The notes under the pieces are model-generated. The model did no database searches. It worked only from the letters and a program-made list of their open reading frames with translations, and had not been told where the DNA came from. The translations under genes and the position numbers were made by a program. Below are positions 5,026-41,561 of a stretch of DNA of 64,000 nucleotides, piece by piece (positions within the stretch are counted from its first letter, which is position 1; every line of letters begins with the position of its first letter). The DNA comes from an uncultured Erysipelotrichaceae bacterium (GTDB lineage Bacteria; Bacillota_I; Bacilli_A; RFN20; CAG-826). Location of the stretch: the NCBI GenBank assembly GCA_900316365.1, contig ONCO01000001.1, positions 1 to 64,000 of the forward strand, given 5' to 3'.

Positions 5026-5058
5026 AGGCCTCACTATTTGCGTGAGGCCTTCTTTTTT
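5026..5058. terminator. Bidirectional terminator between corC-like gene and gmk
   Basis: AGGCCTCAC, a 7-base loop, then GTGAGGCCT and TCTTTTTT on the plus strand; A-rich sequence on the other side gives a U-run for the minus direction. The hairpin overlaps the last codons of gmk. Confidence 0.9.
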
Positions 5059-5585
5059 AACGCTTCTATATAGGTGGTATAGACGAGGTTAGCGATCTCT
5101 TCGATGCTTTTACCTTCGGTAGCGATCTCATAGTCGGTATGTCCGATGGCTTCCTTAGAGAAGGCCACGCGGTCATTGACGATACGTTTTTCGATCGCTT
5201 CTTTGGCATCGCCTCTAATGCCCATTCTCTCTCTTCTGGTTTCTTCTTCCGCGGTGAGGAGGAAGGTGATGAGGCTTGGGTCATTGAGGGATTGGAATTT
5301 CTTTAAGCCATTTGGGTCAAGGATGACGACTTTGTCTTTGGCGATCTCTTTTTTCGAGCAGCCATAGTAGTTGCCATTATAGAGGGTATTCTCGATGAGT
5401 TTCCCTTCGTCCCAGAGGCGTTGGAATGTTTCTTTCGTGACGAAATGATAGTCAACCCCATCGACCTCGCTTGGGCGGATAGGCCTGGAGGTATGGGTGA
5501 TGGCTTTCTTCATGCCGAATTTGGACAGCAAGACTTTCGCGACTTCCGTTTTGCCTGAAGCCGAGGCGCCGATTAAAAGAATCAT
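5034..5585 (-). CDS. gmk: Guanylate kinase (short form)
   Basis: Phosphorylates GMP to GDP with ATP. The 183 residues begin with the P-loop LLIGASASGKTEVAK. The GMP-binding segment follows (THTSRPIRPSEVDGVDYHFV, near residues 31-50), then the lid region with RRERMGIRG. It is a little shorter than typical Gmk (about 205), so another nucleoside-monophosphate-kinase-like role is possible. I place the start at 5585, not at the longer in-frame ATG 5603. A perfect TATAAT (5593-5598 on the complement) lies 7 bases before 5585 and would fall inside the longer reading. No Shine-Dalgarno is present, so translation is probably leaderless. Convergent with the CorC gene. Confidence 0.75.
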   Translation of the reverse strand: MILLIGASASGKTEVAKVLLSKFGMKKAITHTSRPIRPSEVDGVDYHFVTKETFQRLWDEGKLIENTLYNGNYYGCSKKEIAKDKVVILDPNGLKKFQSLNDPSLITFLLTAEEETRRERMGIRGDAKEAIEKRIVNDRVAFSKEAIGHTDYEIATEGKSIEEIANLVYTTYIEALKKKASRK

Positions 5586-5671
5586 ATGGCTGATTATAAG
5601 CAATTTATCGCCATATTTGGGAGATTTTTATACAGTATCAAAAATCTTTTCGATGCAAGAGTCGATTTCCT

Positions 5672-5693
5672 TACTACTTCCTAAGTAGGAGGG
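5672..5693 (+). promoter_or_regulatory. Leader hairpin overlapping the ribosome site of the Tad-like locus
   Basis: CTACTT-CCT-AAGTAG forms a 6-bp stem, and an upstream CCT can pair with the AGG of the AGGAGGG ribosome site, so translation start could be controlled by folding. An almost identical 22-base segment precedes the gene at 40815. Confidence 0.35.
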
Positions 5694-5698
5694 CCCAT

Positions 5699-6049
5699 AT
5701 GGAAATTGAGCTGCTAAACGTTTCTATGAGCACGAAGGAACTCGTCGGATACGTCAAAAGTATCTACCGTTCGGCTTTGCTAGATCTCGGTCGGAGTCCT
5801 GATTCGCATATCTACGAACTAGGGGAACAGGATTTCTATTTAAGCAAGGAGCAGGAGAGGAGTAGGAAGAAGCTAGAGGAGATAGCTCTTTTCTATGCCT
5901 CTTTACCTAAATTCGAAGGCGAGATCTTCATCAATGATTGCCTCGAGTCCGGGCGTCATTATAGGTATTGGTATCTTGGGGGCGCGGGCGTGAAGAATTA
6001 CCAACGTTCCAAGAAGAACCTCTTCCTTAAGCTTAGGGAGGCTTTCTGA
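5699..6049 (+). CDS. Hypothetical protein, first gene of Tad-like locus
   Basis: A 116-residue soluble protein with no membrane segment and no family I recognise. It is rich in charged residues and has a helical middle (KEQERSRKKLEEIALFYASL) and an aromatic stretch (RHYRYWYLGG). It starts 6 bases after AGGAGGG and ends with TGATG, so its stop overlaps the start of the lipoprotein gene. It is the first gene of a tightly packed run that leads to the TadA/TadB/TadC genes. The position suggests a regulator or cytoplasmic accessory of the pilus, but nothing in the sequence proves this. Confidence 0.7.
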   Translation: MEIELLNVSMSTKELVGYVKSIYRSALLDLGRSPDSHIYELGEQDFYLSKEQERSRKKLEEIALFYASLPKFEGEIFINDCLESGRHYRYWYLGGAGVKNYQRSKKNLFLKLREAF

Positions 6050-7134
6050 TGAAGAAGCGATTTCGGGCTTTTCTTTTTCTTCCTGCCCTTACTTGTTTTT
6101 CTCTTGCCTCGTGCGGTTCTAAGACGGAAGAGGAAAGATGCTCCTACCTCCATGAGCTCGCGAAGCCATCGGCCATAGATACCACCAACGAACTAGGCTC
6201 CTTCTCTGGCGGTAACTTAGGTCCGTTAATCAAGGGGCAGCTCTTCTCAACCACGATTGATTTCCAGGCTTCAAGCGCGGGCGCCTTTATCTTTGAAACC
6301 TACTTCGTAGTAGGTAGCAAAAGAACAAGGGTAGGGGGCTCTTCCTTCAGCGAGACCTATTACGCTTCATCGCTTAAAAAGAGCTATACGATCGAAGTTC
6401 CGTCTTCTTTGCTTAATTCCGATGATGGGGGCAAGTTCGAAGTCAAAGTTCGCAAGACCAGCGGCACGAATGCGAATAAGAGCTATTCCTGGAGCGTAAA
6501 CGTCCCTTTGGGCAAAACCGGGGAGATAGCGACGTATGATTGCAAAGAGAGTGTAAGTTTCCCTTCCTATTACTTTTATTGGAGCAGCCCGAATCATTTG
6601 ACTCCCTATTCTTTAAACGTCTCAATCGATGCTTCAGAGAGCAGGAAGCTCCTATACAAGGAACAAGATAACGACGCCTACGATTACATATTGATGTCTG
6701 CTCCGGCCGTCTACATCGATTATAGAGGCAAAGGCACGGCCTCCTTTGAGGCGGAACTATGGCTATTCGACCACTTTGAGGATTTCCCTTTAGCTAAAAC
6801 TGGCAACCATATCGCCATCCCCATGAAAAGCGTTTATGTCTATGGTGGCGGCATCCATCTTTTAAGGTGCAGCGACACTTACTGTTATAGCCGCGTAAAC
6901 CTGGAGATGAGGAAACCAGGCGATATCAGGGATAACGATATCGTCTCGAATAACATCTTCTTACCTATAGGTAAGGGCAGGGTGAATGAGAAATATAATT
7001 TCTCCCTCCATATCCTCAATATCGGACCCCTTAAATGCGGCGTTCTTATTCCTGGATTTTTCTTACGTCACAAAGAGCATTACGGGAACCCCTTCTATGG
7101 GGAATACACCCTTAAATGCGGTTTGGGGGAATAG
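6049..7134 (+). CDS. Lipoprotein of the Tad-like locus
   Basis: A 361-residue exported lipoprotein. The signal peptide (MKKRFRAFLFLPALTCFSLASCG) ends in a lipobox with Cys about residue 22, so it would be anchored on the outer face of the cell membrane. The rest is beta-rich with repeated short hydrophobic strands and a few Cys (CGLGE at the end). No known domain recognised. It overlaps the upstream gene by 1 base and is followed after 2 bases by a pseudopilin-like gene. In a cell with no outer membrane, a lipoprotein could act as the surface partner or adhesin of the pilus; that role is inferred only from context. Confidence 0.75.
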   Translation: MKKRFRAFLFLPALTCFSLASCGSKTEEERCSYLHELAKPSAIDTTNELGSFSGGNLGPLIKGQLFSTTIDFQASSAGAFIFETYFVVGSKRTRVGGSSFSETYYASSLKKSYTIEVPSSLLNSDDGGKFEVKVRKTSGTNANKSYSWSVNVPLGKTGEIATYDCKESVSFPSYYFYWSSPNHLTPYSLNVSIDASESRKLLYKEQDNDAYDYILMSAPAVYIDYRGKGTASFEAELWLFDHFEDFPLAKTGNHIAIPMKSVYVYGGGIHLLRCSDTYCYSRVNLEMRKPGDIRDNDIVSNNIFLPIGKGRVNEKYNFSLHILNIGPLKCGVLIPGFFLRHKEHYGNPFYGEYTLKCGLGE

Positions 7135-7136
7135 AG

Positions 7137-7526
7137 ATGGAGAACATGTTCCTTTGGAGTCTGATCCTTATCTTCTCGGTCCTCTCCTTCAACTTCAATT
7201 TCACCCTTTCCGGGGTCAATAGGGCCTTCTTGGGTCTATTTAAGGCCATCCCGATGAATAACGTCATGGCCTTCGAAAGCTATGGCGATAGGACGATTCC
7301 TTATTTCGATGAGGCAAGCCTAGAGGCGGCATCTAGAGCTTATGTCGCGGAGAGTCTTAGCCCTTATGGAGTTAAGGCTGATCTTTCCTTTAAGTATCGG
7401 ACCATCGCTCCATTAAAGGGGAGTCGGCATAACTACGTCTCCGTGACTATGAAGAGCGATCTTGGCCTCTATGGCGAATTCACCAAGAGCCTACATTTTT
7501 CAATCGAGGCAAGCGGACATGAATGA
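7137..7526 (+). CDS. TadE/pseudopilin-like single-TM protein
   Basis: A 129-residue protein with one N-terminal hydrophobic segment (about residues 4-25) followed by a soluble domain. This is the layout of TadE/TadF-type pseudopilins, but sequence similarity is not obvious. The start ATG 7137 sits 2 bases after the previous stop; GGGGGA upstream may serve as ribosome site. Its 3' end overlaps the TadA gene by 8 bases. No classical prepilin cleavage motif (G followed by F/M and E at +5) is visible. Minor pilin or a membrane assembly factor are both possible. Confidence 0.6.
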   Translation: MENMFLWSLILIFSVLSFNFNFTLSGVNRAFLGLFKAIPMNNVMAFESYGDRTIPYFDEASLEAASRAYVAESLSPYGVKADLSFKYRTIAPLKGSRHNYVSVTMKSDLGLYGEFTKSLHFSIEASGHE

Positions 7527-8484
7527 CGAGAGATTAAAAGAATTCGTGGAAGCTTCTTTCCTTAAGCCTCTCCTCTTTAAAAAAGGCGTGACTGATATCT
7601 CCTATAACGGCGAGGAACTCTTTTATGAGACTAACCTCGAAGGCAGGAAGAAGGCGCGTCTTGAGGTCGATAGGAAAACAGTAGGCGACTTCCTAAGGCA
7701 AATCGCCAATTACGGCGAGAAGCAATTCTCCTTCAGCGAGCCGTTTTTAGACCTCTCCTTTTCCCGTTATAGGCTTAACGCCGCCTTCACGAATATCGTG
7801 AGGGTCAAAGACGGCAGGAGCTATTCCTTTTCCCTCCGAATCCTCGGTGAGCAAAGCGTCATCAAGGACAATTCCCCCTTCTTTGAAGGGGAAGCCAGGG
7901 AAATATTGGTCAAGGCCATCAATAACGGCGAATCAATCGTTATCGGTGGCATCACCTCCAGCGGAAAAACCGAACTCCAGAAATACCTCTTATTGCACCT
8001 AAAGGAGGCGACTAGAGTCATCGTCGTCGATAACCTCCAAGAATTAGAAAGGATCCGTGGGGCATCCGGGATTGATCTAACCTCCTGGCAGGTCGATGAA
8101 AGATATAACGCCTCCACCTATTCCTCGCTTATTAGAAACGCCTTAAGGAACTGTCCTGATTTGATTGTCGTCGCCGAGGCCAGGGGCGCGGAGATGAATG
8201 AAGCCATCACTTCCGTTTCTTCAGGGCACCCCATCCTCATGACTATCCACTCAAAGGATTTGGTGTCCATGCCAGAACGAATGGTTAGGCTAGCCCTATT
8301 AGGCGGTCAAAGAATCCTTAGGGAAGAACTCCTTGAGGAGGTCTATCACCATTTCACCATCTTTGTTTATCTGGCCAAGAAGATAAAAGAGGATGGGACC
8401 ATCTTCCGTTATGTCCAAAGCATAGGAAGGCTGAACGAGAAAGAGATGAAGATGGACATCATCTACGAAAGGAAGGACGTATGA
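7519..8484 (+). CDS. tadA: TadA/CpaF-family secretion ATPase
   Basis: Cytoplasmic hexameric ATPase of the type II/IV secretion superfamily that drives pilus assembly or secretion. The 321 residues include an N-terminal domain (FLRQIANYGEKQFSFSEPFL, then RLNAAF) and the P-loop GGITSSGKTE (residues 142-151). An Asp box/Walker B follows (NCPDLIVVAEARGAEM), and the His box reads SSGHPILMTIHSKD. It is shorter than most CpaF proteins (about 400 or more), as the N-terminal extension is small. The start is set at 7519 because ATG there opens the conserved part; a longer in-frame start at 7462 would lie deep in the preceding gene. Overlaps both neighbours, so it is strictly cotranscribed. Confidence 0.88.
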   Translation: MNDERLKEFVEASFLKPLLFKKGVTDISYNGEELFYETNLEGRKKARLEVDRKTVGDFLRQIANYGEKQFSFSEPFLDLSFSRYRLNAAFTNIVRVKDGRSYSFSLRILGEQSVIKDNSPFFEGEAREILVKAINNGESIVIGGITSSGKTELQKYLLLHLKEATRVIVVDNLQELERIRGASGIDLTSWQVDERYNASTYSSLIRNALRNCPDLIVVAEARGAEMNEAITSVSSGHPILMTIHSKDLVSMPERMVRLALLGGQRILREELLEEVYHHFTIFVYLAKKIKEDGTIFRYVQSIGRLNEKEMKMDIIYERKDV

Positions 8485-9197
8485 TCGACGCGTTTATCCT
8501 CCTTTTGCCTTGCTCCTTTGGCCTACTCGCCTTTTGGCTAAGCGATAACTTAATCATCGCCATTTCGATTGCCTTAATTTACCTACTTTCCGCCTTCTTT
8601 TTGCTTAAGCCTTGGATGAAGTCTCTCTACGAGAGAAGGCGTAAAAGGAAGGAGAGTTTCCGTTTTATCTCCTCCTTCGTTATCTCTTTGGCCTTAACCG
8701 GTTCCTTGGAGAAAAGCTATGACGGGGCGATAAGCGACGCTTCAGGCGAATTTGGCTCAGTGGTCAAAGGCATAGAAAGCGAGGCCGTCAGAGACCGCAT
8801 CGTCTATCTCAATAACTATTTCGAGATGGAGAGCTACCGCATGTTCTTAAGTCTCTATTCCTTATATGAGGCCCAAGGCGGGGACCTCCTTGATATCTCC
8901 AAAGGGCTTCTAGACGAATTAACAAGAATCGAAGAAAGCGAGAATGCGATTGAAAAGGAGGGGAAGGCCTCAATGAGGGAGTACCTCATCATGTGGGTAA
9001 TCTCCCTGGGCATCTTCTCTTTCCTTCGCCTTGGCTTAGCCAACTTCTATGACGCCTTGGAGAAGAACCCATTCTTCCTTTGCTCCATCTCCATCTTCTT
9101 CGCTTTCTTCTTAGGCTCGATCCTTTTCTATTTCTACGTCTATTCCGGTAAGCCGAAGCTCTCATTCAGGAGGAAAAAGCATGAAGAAAAGAAATGA
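8481..9197 (+). CDS. TadB-like inner-membrane platform protein
   Basis: A 238-residue membrane protein with two N-terminal hydrophobic segments (about 3-45), a cytoplasmic helical domain (50-155) and two C-terminal segments (about 165-220). This matches the T2SF/TadB arrangement in which the platform couples the ATPase to pilin extrusion. Recognition rests on topology, length and position right after TadA (4-base overlap) more than on sequence. The cytoplasmic part contains SFVISLALTGSLEKSYDGAI, resembling the start of a T2SF domain. It overlaps the TadC-like gene by 17 bases. Confidence 0.72.
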   Translation: MIDAFILLLPCSFGLLAFWLSDNLIIAISIALIYLLSAFFLLKPWMKSLYERRRKRKESFRFISSFVISLALTGSLEKSYDGAISDASGEFGSVVKGIESEAVRDRIVYLNNYFEMESYRMFLSLYSLYEAQGGDLLDISKGLLDELTRIEESENAIEKEGKASMREYLIMWVISLGIFSFLRLGLANFYDALEKNPFFLCSISIFFAFFLGSILFYFYVYSGKPKLSFRRKKHEEKK

Positions 9198-9849
9198 GAT
9201 GTGGGACGCGCTTGGGCTAGACCCAAAGAAAGAATATGCGAAGCTCTTTGCTTTGGAGTTTCTTTTAATCGCGATCGCTATCGGAAGCTATCTCTATCTA
9301 AGACGTATCTTCATCCTTCCGGGCGTGGCCATCTTCGCCTTGGTATTCGGCTTCTTCTATTTCAGCCGTTACGACATCTTGCTTAAGGAAAAAGAACAAA
9401 GGGCGACGGACCAATTCGTCGAAAGCTTTACCTATTTCTCGATCTATATCAGCAATGGCTATAACGTTTACCGCGCCTTAGAGGAGGCGTCGTTATTATC
9501 CCAAAGCGACATCAAGCCATATTTCGATGAACTGCTTGATGGCATAGATAACGATAAGAGCCTCGCCCCGTTTCTAGCTTTCTCCAAACATTTCTCCTCC
9601 CTATCCATAAAGGAGGTCATGTTAAGCGTCTATCAGATGGTCGATGAAGGTGGTGGAATGGCCCATATCAGGCAATTCGAAAGCCTCTTCGCCTCCTTCA
9701 GCGAGGAACGCCATCTCTTAGAGAGGGAGAGGAAGAAAAAGACCTTAGGGAACATGCAGGCCTTCCCGCTTATCGGAAGTGGGCTAACCATGCTTACCTT
9801 AACGGCCTCTTTAGTCATCATCATGGGGAGTATCTACAATGTCTTATAA
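9181..9849 (+). CDS. TadC-like inner-membrane platform protein
   Basis: A 222-residue membrane protein with two hydrophobic segments near the N-terminus (about 20-60), a cytoplasmic domain with FVESFTYFSIYISNGYNVYR, and a C-terminal hydrophobic segment (about 195-220). In Tad systems TadB and TadC are paralogous T2SF-type platform proteins, and this one fits the TadC place. It overlaps the previous gene by 17 bases and the next by 11 bases. Such overlaps throughout 6049-10186 show one transcription unit. Confidence 0.7.
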   Translation: MKKRNEMWDALGLDPKKEYAKLFALEFLLIAIAIGSYLYLRRIFILPGVAIFALVFGFFYFSRYDILLKEKEQRATDQFVESFTYFSIYISNGYNVYRALEEASLLSQSDIKPYFDELLDGIDNDKSLAPFLAFSKHFSSLSIKEVMLSVYQMVDEGGGMAHIRQFESLFASFSEERHLLERERKKKTLGNMQAFPLIGSGLTMLTLTASLVIIMGSIYNVL

Positions 9850-10186
9850 GTTCTCATTGCTCCTATCGATGTTTTTCTTAGTTCAGGTGTTTTTATACGC
9901 CGGGGACTTAGCTTGCATCGAATCGATACATAGTCAGCTAGACGCCATCTCGCTTACCGCTTCATATCAAATATCGATGCAAGGCGGGCTGAACGATAGC
10001 ATTGCCAAATTCGTCTACGAAGAAGCGAAGGCGAAGATCTATTACACCGACGATAAACAGTCATACAAAGCCTATGGGGAATCGGTCTCTTTTTATGTGA
10101 GCCGCGATTACATCCCATTCGTTATCTCAGATAAGGCGATCGCCATCACCGTCAGACGCAGCGCGGTGATCGGCTATTTCCAATGA
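9839..10186 (+). CDS. Small single-TM pseudopilin-like protein
   Basis: A 115-residue protein with an N-terminal hydrophobic helix (SLLLSMFFLVQVFLYAGDLA, residues 6-25) and a soluble C-terminal domain. The TM is followed by CIESIHSQLDAISLTASYQI, an amphipathic extension of the helix as in pilin-like subunits. No family recognised. Placed between TadC and the short pilin gene, it could be a minor pilin or a TadE/F analogue. Its start overlaps the end of the TadC gene by 11 bases. Confidence 0.6.
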   Translation: MSYKFSLLLSMFFLVQVFLYAGDLACIESIHSQLDAISLTASYQISMQGGLNDSIAKFVYEEAKAKIYYTDDKQSYKAYGESVSFYVSRDYIPFVISDKAIAITVRRSAVIGYFQ

Positions 10187-10204
10187 AAGAAAGGAGGTGG
10201 AGTT

Positions 10205-10354
10205 ATGGGAGAAATCAAAGGGCAGCTTCTCGGCATCATTCTCGTTCTTACCATTTTCGCCCTCGTCGGCGGTGTCATGGTCAGTGCCTTTAATAGCAGC
10301 ACAAGCACTATCTCCAGCCGCATCGCGGCCGAGGATAACTGGGACGGAAAATAG
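10205..10354 (+). CDS. Candidate Flp-type pilin, 49 residues
   Basis: Short gene behind a very strong ribosome site (AAAGGAGGTG, about 10191-10200). The product is MGEIKGQLLG, then a hydrophobic helix (IILVLTIFALVGGVMVSAF, residues 11-29), then a polar, Ser/Thr-rich tail ending NWDGK. A leader of a few charged residues, a Gly before the hydrophobic helix and a very small mature part are typical of Flp pilins. The usual Glu at +5 of the mature helix is not seen, and no prepilin peptidase (TadV) gene is in the window. As last gene of the Tad-like operon with the best ribosome site, it is the likely major subunit. Confidence 0.6.
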   Translation: MGEIKGQLLGIILVLTIFALVGGVMVSAFNSSTSTISSRIAAEDNWDGK

Positions 10355-10370: not shown

Positions 10371-10399
10371 TTGAAGGCCATGTGGCAACCTTCTATAAT
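10371..10399 (+). promoter_or_regulatory. Promoter of acpP
   Basis: TTGAAG (10371-10376), 17-base spacer, TATAAT (10394-10399). This gives acpP its own promoter, separate from the pilus operon, with a leader of about 18 bases. Confidence 0.75.
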
Positions 10400-40757: not shown

Positions 40758-40786
40758 CGTTTTTGCTGCCAAAAAACCTTTTTGTC

Positions 40787-40808
40787 TACTACTTACTAAG
40801 CAGGAGAG
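40787..40808 (+). promoter_or_regulatory. Leader segment shared with the Tad-like locus
   Basis: TACTACTTACTAAGCAGGAG matches TACTACTTCCTAAGTAGGAG at 5672 in 18 of 20 bases and includes the ribosome site. It is just upstream of the ATG at 40815. Confidence 0.35.
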
Positions 40809-40814
40809 CAAAAA

Positions 40815-41561
40815 ATGGACAACACTAAAATTTCCGAATACAAAATGAGAGACTCATTCCACAACAAACGTTTTGGAGACCTCACCGATAGGCAAAAGGA
40901 ATTGATAAGGCGGTTTCACCCAACAATAAGCGATGATCAAATCTTAAATTGCGATCTGTGTAATCGTTATTCCAAACCTGACATCTATGTTTCAGTAGGA
41001 AGTTCGATGACCTATTTATCCTTAAAAGACGGCCGAAGCGACTCTTTACACTTCGAATCGGTCAAAGGCATTGTTTTGTTTTTAAGATCGTTAGGCGTTT
41101 CCGCGAAAACCCAGAAAACCATCCTTCTTTTCCATTATGGAGACGGAACCTTGGATGGCAGCGGCCAGAAGCGCATCCTTTTCGAAGACCTGCTACCAAA
41201 GCTATCTTCAAGGCTAAAAGAAGCAAACGAGGAACTGGGCCAAAGGAATATCGTCGATGCCTGTTTGGAACGCTTCATGTTTTCGGGGACTGAGAATAGG
41301 CGACAGGGGATCGATGCCGTCGTCTTTGGTTCGCCGGATTGCCCGGTCTACGCGACGAAAGACGAAATTCGGGACGCGGTGTTAAACCGGCACTTCCGCC
41401 ATATCCGCACCCTTCACATCGGGCCAATGACCCTTCAGCCGTATTTAAGGGACGTCAATCGGAAGAGCAAACACCCAGAGAAGCGAGAAGTAGTTCAGGT
41501 GAAATGGCATTATCTTCTGACCGACATCGAGAAGATCGAAGCCGCAAGAAACCGCGGATAA
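40815..41561 (+). CDS. Conserved hypothetical protein, probable PD-(D/E)XK fold
   Basis: A 248-residue soluble protein. Residues 45-85 show a restriction-endonuclease-like core: CDLCNRYSKPDIYV (D56), then YLSLKDG (K71, with S69 in place of Asp/Glu) and HFESVKGIVLFLRSLGV (E81). This S-x-K variant is known in some PD-(D/E)XK enzymes. Other well-preserved stretches are LLFHYGDGTLDGSG and HIGPMTLQPYLR, and the end QVKWHYLLTDIEKI. I recall it as a widespread uncharacterised Firmicutes family, possibly linked to restriction or defence. No methylase or partner gene adjacent. AGGAG site 9 bases upstream. Convergent with the GH3 gene. Confidence 0.6.
   Translation: MDNTKISEYKMRDSFHNKRFGDLTDRQKELIRRFHPTISDDQILNCDLCNRYSKPDIYVSVGSSMTYLSLKDGRSDSLHFESVKGIVLFLRSLGVSAKTQKTILLFHYGDGTLDGSGQKRILFEDLLPKLSSRLKEANEELGQRNIVDACLERFMFSGTENRRQGIDAVVFGSPDCPVYATKDEIRDAVLNRHFRHIRTLHIGPMTLQPYLRDVNRKSKHPEKREVVQVKWHYLLTDIEKIEAARNRG

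Follow-up and report, generated by a model that had tools for sequence, protein, structure and literature searches.

The window, a stretch of 64,000 nucleotides from an uncultured Erysipelotrichaceae bacterium whose genome assembly spans 1.47 Mb and is 94% complete, carries between positions 5699 and 10354 eight genes that all lie on one strand and mostly overlap or abut, as the first-pass annotation of this DNA had described. Refinement of the start codons places ORF3 at 7137-7526 (not from 7116) and tadA at 7519-8484. The features of the locus, all on the plus strand, are as follows.

5667..5687, plus strand: shared box TTCCTTACTACTTCCTAAGTA, directly 5' of the ORF1 Shine-Dalgarno sequence; the same box precedes comEA in the window's genome
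5699..6049, plus strand: ORF1, 116 aa, sigma-region-4/ArpU-like likely regulator of the MG284/MPN403 family (NF045770 and TIGR01637 matches of relatives; AF2 model; weak Foldseek matches)
6049..7134, plus strand: ORF2, 361 aa, predicted secreted surface protein with two beta (Ig-like) domains (AF2 model; 59 homologues)
7137..7526, plus strand: ORF3, 129 aa, leaderless single-TM pseudopilin-like protein, assigned by architecture (61/61 loci, alignment)
7519..8484, plus strand: TadA/CpaF-type ATPase, 321 aa (T2SSE and TIGR03819 matches)
8481..9197, plus strand: TadB-like platform protein, 238 aa (profile match to its TadC-like neighbour; conservation)
9181..9849, plus strand: TadC-like platform protein, 222 aa (T2SSF in 9/24 relatives)
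9839..10186, plus strand: ORF7, 115 aa, TadF-like leaderless minor pilin (PF16964 in relatives; 60/61 loci)
10205..10354, plus strand: Flp-like pilin, 49 aa, MGEIKG|QLLGIILVLTIF..., without Glu5 (42-sequence alignment; 59/61 loci)
10371..10399, plus strand: sigma-70-like promoter TTGAAG-17-TATAAT, which would split acpP from the pilus operon; the count of such sites in this region is not above chance

The flanking genes are indeed housekeeping genes, guanylate kinase (PF00625) on one side and acyl carrier protein (PF00550) on the other. The guanylate kinase gene (window 5034-5603, minus strand) points away from the operon and is kept alongside it in 57 of 61 loci.

Of the 146 genomes sampled from the family, 124 have TadA, and these represent 32 of the 35 genera; we take this family to be GTDB family CAG-826 of the order RFN20. 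The order guanylate kinase (minus strand), ORF1, ORF2, ORF3, tadA, tadB, tadC, ORF7, pilin, acpP is near-invariant in the 61 loci that were fully read, with each gene present in 55 to 61 of them, and of 72 further loci with at least eight of the nine genes, many from the same species, 68 are colinear. This recurrence of gene order exceeds chance by far. The first-pass annotation had named a locus that does not stay together in relatives as grounds for abandoning its reading; the order held in nearly all of the 61 loci, and together with the gene content it supports the description of a complete, minimal Tad/Flp-type locus. The named relatives are MAGs of uncultured Bacilli or Erysipelotrichaceae, many from rumen or gut, and include Candidatus Alloenteromonas, Onthovivens and Fiminaster; to our knowledge no member of the family has been cultured. 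A literature search on pili in Alloenteromonas or on MG284/MPN403 found nothing relevant, and a first scan of the genome contigs with a single protein as query gave no match.

The ATPase of the locus is of the TadA/CpaF type. It matches T2SSE (5.8e-17) and the TadA model TIGR03819 (3.2e-26, under the curated cut-off of that model), its profile finds CpaF and archaeal homologues among PDB entries, and it is the sole T2SSE-family ATPase above cut-off in the window's genome. TadB and TadC are both divergent and gave no matches in single-sequence Pfam searches; they are homologous to one another by profile comparison (hhalign probability 91, E 1e-6), and T2SSF is matched by 9 of 24 TadC relatives. 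The paired platform proteins of Tad systems are as such represented by two adjacent homologous proteins. Minor pilins of the TadE/TadF kind are represented through ORF7, whose relatives match PF16964 (TadF) in 8 of 43 cases (best 2.4e-4), and through ORF3 by architecture only, with a Pfam TadE match in just one of 42 relatives, at 0.044. Mutual homology of ORF3 and ORF7 was considered and rejected, as only the TM region aligns (hhalign probability 5).

From the set of proteins for which the first-pass annotation knew no family, TadF-like ORF7 and also ORF1 have to be removed. Matches to NF045770 (MG284/MPN403) were found for 29 of 36 ORF1 relatives (best 3.4e-20) and matches to TIGR01637 (ArpU) for 9 of 36, the window's ORF1 itself having no match to NF045770. 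Its AF2 model is all-alpha (pLDDT 90.6), and Foldseek returned weak matches, none significant, which include sigma region 4. For ORF2, AF2 gave a mean pLDDT of 71 and a low pTM, with beta domains at about residues 50-155 and 220-355; no specific fold identity could be retained, the structure search having given generic Ig-like matches only. The earlier description of ORF2 as a lipoprotein is correct for the window's genome, where a lipobox is present, but does not extend to the locus in general, a lipobox-like pattern being found in only 5 of 59 homologues; elsewhere ORF2 mostly has an ordinary signal-peptide-like N-terminus.

The window's genome encodes ComEA and ComEC, in an operon between greA and a holA-like gene, as well as DprA (G000:C24). 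The leader of ORF1, TTCCTTACTACTTCCTAAGTAGGAGG, is almost identical to the leader of comEA, TTCCTTACTACTTAATAAGCAGGAGG. We compared the 60 nt before ORF1 with those before comEA, in the same and in mismatched genomes. In 45 genomes the mean score was 13.7 for same-genome pairs versus 8.2 for mismatched pairs (p=2.5e-16), and the same-genome comparison of tad with acpP upstream sequences scored 7.6, below the tad/comEA value (p=1.5e-10). The likeness persists without the last 14 nt, the Shine-Dalgarno part (p=4e-16), and in a set of 54 genomes has p=5e-17; it is not clear in every genome, with 14 of 45 tad/comEA pairs above the 99th percentile of mismatched pairs. The box varies by lineage and matches within a genome, as expected for a co-evolving regulator and its sites, and ORF1 is likely to be that regulator. 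An inverted repeat was also considered as the shared element and discarded, being no commoner than before acpP.

The 21-base box is matched five times in the window's genome with at most three mismatches, each time 20-34 nt ahead of a start codon. Only two of these are exact copies, before ORF1 and before comEA; two others, with two mismatches each, precede genes for a 381-aa zinc-finger DEAD helicase and for a protein of 400 aa that carries a C39 peptidase domain at its N-terminus. With up to three mismatches allowed, the pattern reversed as a control also matched twice, and the weaker box matches are provisional, those before the helicase and C39 genes coming from this one genome. The helicase is taken for a ComFA-like protein on its zinc finger and helicase domains only, and a ComFA-specific model did not match it. 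At this gene (L333:356-1521; G000:C31, minus strand) the box ends in the start codon, and the mRNA might be leaderless. The C39-domain protein (L332:1501-2723; G000:C12) has a GTG start and a membrane part with no ABC ATPase, and could process or export a signal. A possible further regulon member lies within the window (40782-41561), where a box with three mismatches stands 33 nt before a 248-aa gene (start at 40815) that has no Pfam or NCBIfam match.

Across the family, ComEC was found in 143 of 146 genomes with a family profile, and the three genomes without ComEC are also without TadA, a joint absence with a hypergeometric probability of about 0.003 when kinship is ignored, one of the three genomes being 66% complete. 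An apparent break of this link, seen with Pfam alone (ComEC in 91/146), disappeared when the family profile raised the count. DprA is likewise present in 143 of 146 genomes. ComEC is retained where TadA is missing, in 19 genomes of the family and in a sister family, and therefore does not require the Tad pilus.

The shared upstream sequences suggest that the locus has its on-switch in common with the DNA-import channel, and of the three roles raised by the first-pass annotation (a reduced pilus, a competence-like machine or an adhesin-secretion machine) they best back the second. Our preferred reading, to which we give a probability of about three in four, is that the locus encodes a minimal, peptidase-free Tad (type IVc) pilus serving as the DNA-uptake pilus of the competence regulon. 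The same genes could instead build a pilus for adhesion or aggregation, the classical Tad role, which is merely co-induced with the competence genes. Tad pili usually adhere, and ORF2, secreted and Ig-like, evolves fast, as tip adhesins do. However, the shared box links the locus to comEA-comEC and probably to comFA, not to surface genes, and most family genomes have no other pilus to serve ComEC; we consider an adhesion pilus unlikely.

The pilin sets this system apart. Flp pilins are defined by a G/XXXXEY site at which cleavage is required (PMC4322843). The pilin of the family has the consensus M[SG]E.KG[QT]LL.., with M1, E3, K5 and G6 invariant in 42 sequences and Q7 conserved in more than 90%. 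It keeps KG|Q, but wherever the motif is present the residue at +5 after Gly is I, M, V or L and never Glu, and the G/XXXXEY site is absent. In alignments the N-termini of ORF3 and ORF7 start directly at the TM helix, with no leader. The statement of the first-pass annotation that the locus lacks a prepilin peptidase can be widened to the whole genome, in which a PF01478 search found neither TadV nor an equivalent. The same search was negative in 141 of 146 family genomes and positive in five, four above cut-off and one by a weak match, and in a control set of 14 genomes it detected peptidases in 12. The four confident peptidases belong to the only four family genomes with PilB/ComGA-type ATPases (E below 1e-120), each within a few kb of the PilB-type ATPase. 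Two of these PilB-type loci, on reading, proved to be canonical T4P loci that encode typical prepilins, and the single peptidase that was tested belongs to the PilD type. Genomes G065, G127, G132 and G143 hence bear a second, PilB-type T4P system, with which the sample's only confident prepilin peptidases are found.

Type IV filaments are generally held to require prepilin cleavage. From the lack of a peptidase, the pilin without Glu5 and the leaderless ORF3 and ORF7, we infer that assembly here probably needs no pilin processing. A very divergent peptidase could nevertheless have been missed by the PF01478 search, and the locus would then be an ordinary Tad pilus with a distant TadV, which is compatible with DNA uptake. 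The near-invariant KG|Q is as expected of a cleavage site; against this, PF01478 recovers the peptidases of most controls and of all four PilB-type genomes with a single weak match elsewhere, and ORF3 and ORF7 lack a leader that would have to be cleaved off, making an undetected peptidase improbable. MSH loci without a peptidase are thought to borrow one (PMC6668835), whereas the window's genome has no detected peptidase to borrow. That the locus is a pseudopilus-like machine secreting ORF2 or another protein, with no long filament, would suit the very short pilin, the missing Glu5 and peptidase and the one secreted protein of the operon, but is very improbable given that ORF2 bears its own Sec or lipoprotein signal, that single-membrane cells need no such exporter and that co-regulation favours DNA uptake.

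In the DNA-uptake pilus that we favour, TadA would power TadB and TadC to polymerise the 49-residue Flp-like pilin, which would enter the filament without a prepilin peptidase and retain its six-residue cytoplasmic N-terminus. ORF3 and TadF-like ORF7, presumably encoded already in mature form, may be initiating or minor subunits, and secreted ORF2 may be placed at the pilus tip or surface. Retraction would deliver DNA to ComEA, ComEC would import it with help from the ComFA-like helicase, and ORF1, a sigma-4/ArpU-like protein, would likely act on the shared box. As the G/XXXXEY site and the peptidase are missing, we class the locus as a Tad-derived variant, which should work like a Tad competence pilus.

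The ComG pseudopilus of Bacillus has a PilB-type ATPase, one platform protein and the peptidase ComC, whereas neither a PilB-type ATPase nor a peptidase was found in the window's genome. The presumed job of the two is alike, namely feeding ComEA and ComEC in a monoderm (ComM, PMC6668835). Loss of the secretin in monoderm Tad systems is already known (PMC6668835), and RcpA, a diderm component, is absent from the locus. Tad-dependent transformation has been described in Micrococcus luteus (PMC4322843), which is likewise a monoderm with tad genes, ComEA, ComEC and DprA, with no ComG pilus and with TadZ missing. The M. luteus pilus is required for transformation (PMC4322843). M. luteus has two tad clusters, with tadV outside the cluster and a candidate peptidase gene elsewhere (PMC4322843), in contrast to one small operon and no peptidase here; the window's locus also differs in the missing Glu5, in its sigma-4-like gene and in the box that it has in common with comEA. 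In Liberibacter crescens, DNA uptake depends on a Tad pilus that similarly has a CpaF-type ATPase, and import by ComEC follows (PMC8513845), but the locus is that of a diderm, with the prepilin peptidase cpaA and other cpa genes.

Reduced relatives of the locus were found outside the family. A sister family of the same order (L153, L154, L156, L159) retains ORF1, ORF2, ORF3, ORF7 and a TadB-TadC fusion, one half of which matches TadB and the other TadC; its proteins pair with those of the family on the diagonal of the profile comparison, and the off-diagonals are clean. No T2SSE ATPase above cut-off was found in any of six sister-family genomes (96-98% complete), the sister-family locus has no pilin, and the shared box is absent from this family (f2), where ComEC is still present. 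Alone before acpP or a ptsI-like gene, ORF1 also occurs in other Bacilli (f14, f19; L162, L149, L147, L157, L160).

ORF1 and the MG284 family are homologues by profile comparison (hhalign 98.3, E 2e-14). In Mycoplasma (family f16, UGA read in frame) 102 of 119 genomes have a member of the ORF1 family, downstream of which come a gene for a protein some 380 aa long, one for a single-TM protein some 140 aa long and, in most cases, acpP. This cluster occurs in most sampled genera (L271-L289, L164-L173), and some Mycoplasma genomes have two or three ORF1-family copies. We take these genes to be MG284-MG285-MG286-acpP, the names MG285-MG287 being assigned by the gene order of M. genitalium. The cluster resembles the window's locus in having an ORF1 homologue, a long gene, a single-TM gene and acpP in succession, and differs in that tadA, tadB, tadC and the pilin are absent. 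Comparisons of MG285 with ORF2 and of MG286 with ORF3 were not significant, even with 26 Mycoplasma sequences; the best P for MG286 and ORF3 was 0.005, with the whole C-terminal part aligned, and 0.014 with a larger ORF3 profile. Position and layout suggest ORF2 and ORF3 as the respective ancestors of MG285 and MG286. It is possible, if on balance doubtful, that a processing-free competence filament was dismantled stepwise in mollicute-like Bacilli, MG284-MG285-MG286 beside acpP being its last remnant.

Systems of this kind are already known; within the literature searched, the peptidase-free form of Bacilli and its reduced relatives are undescribed and look new. A peptidase-free machine present throughout a family would show how little is needed to make a type IV pilus. 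If our reading is true, it would provide a large lineage of uncultured gut and rumen bacteria with a DNA-uptake route, point to a candidate competence regulator, and reveal an evolutionary link to conserved Mycoplasma genes of unknown function.
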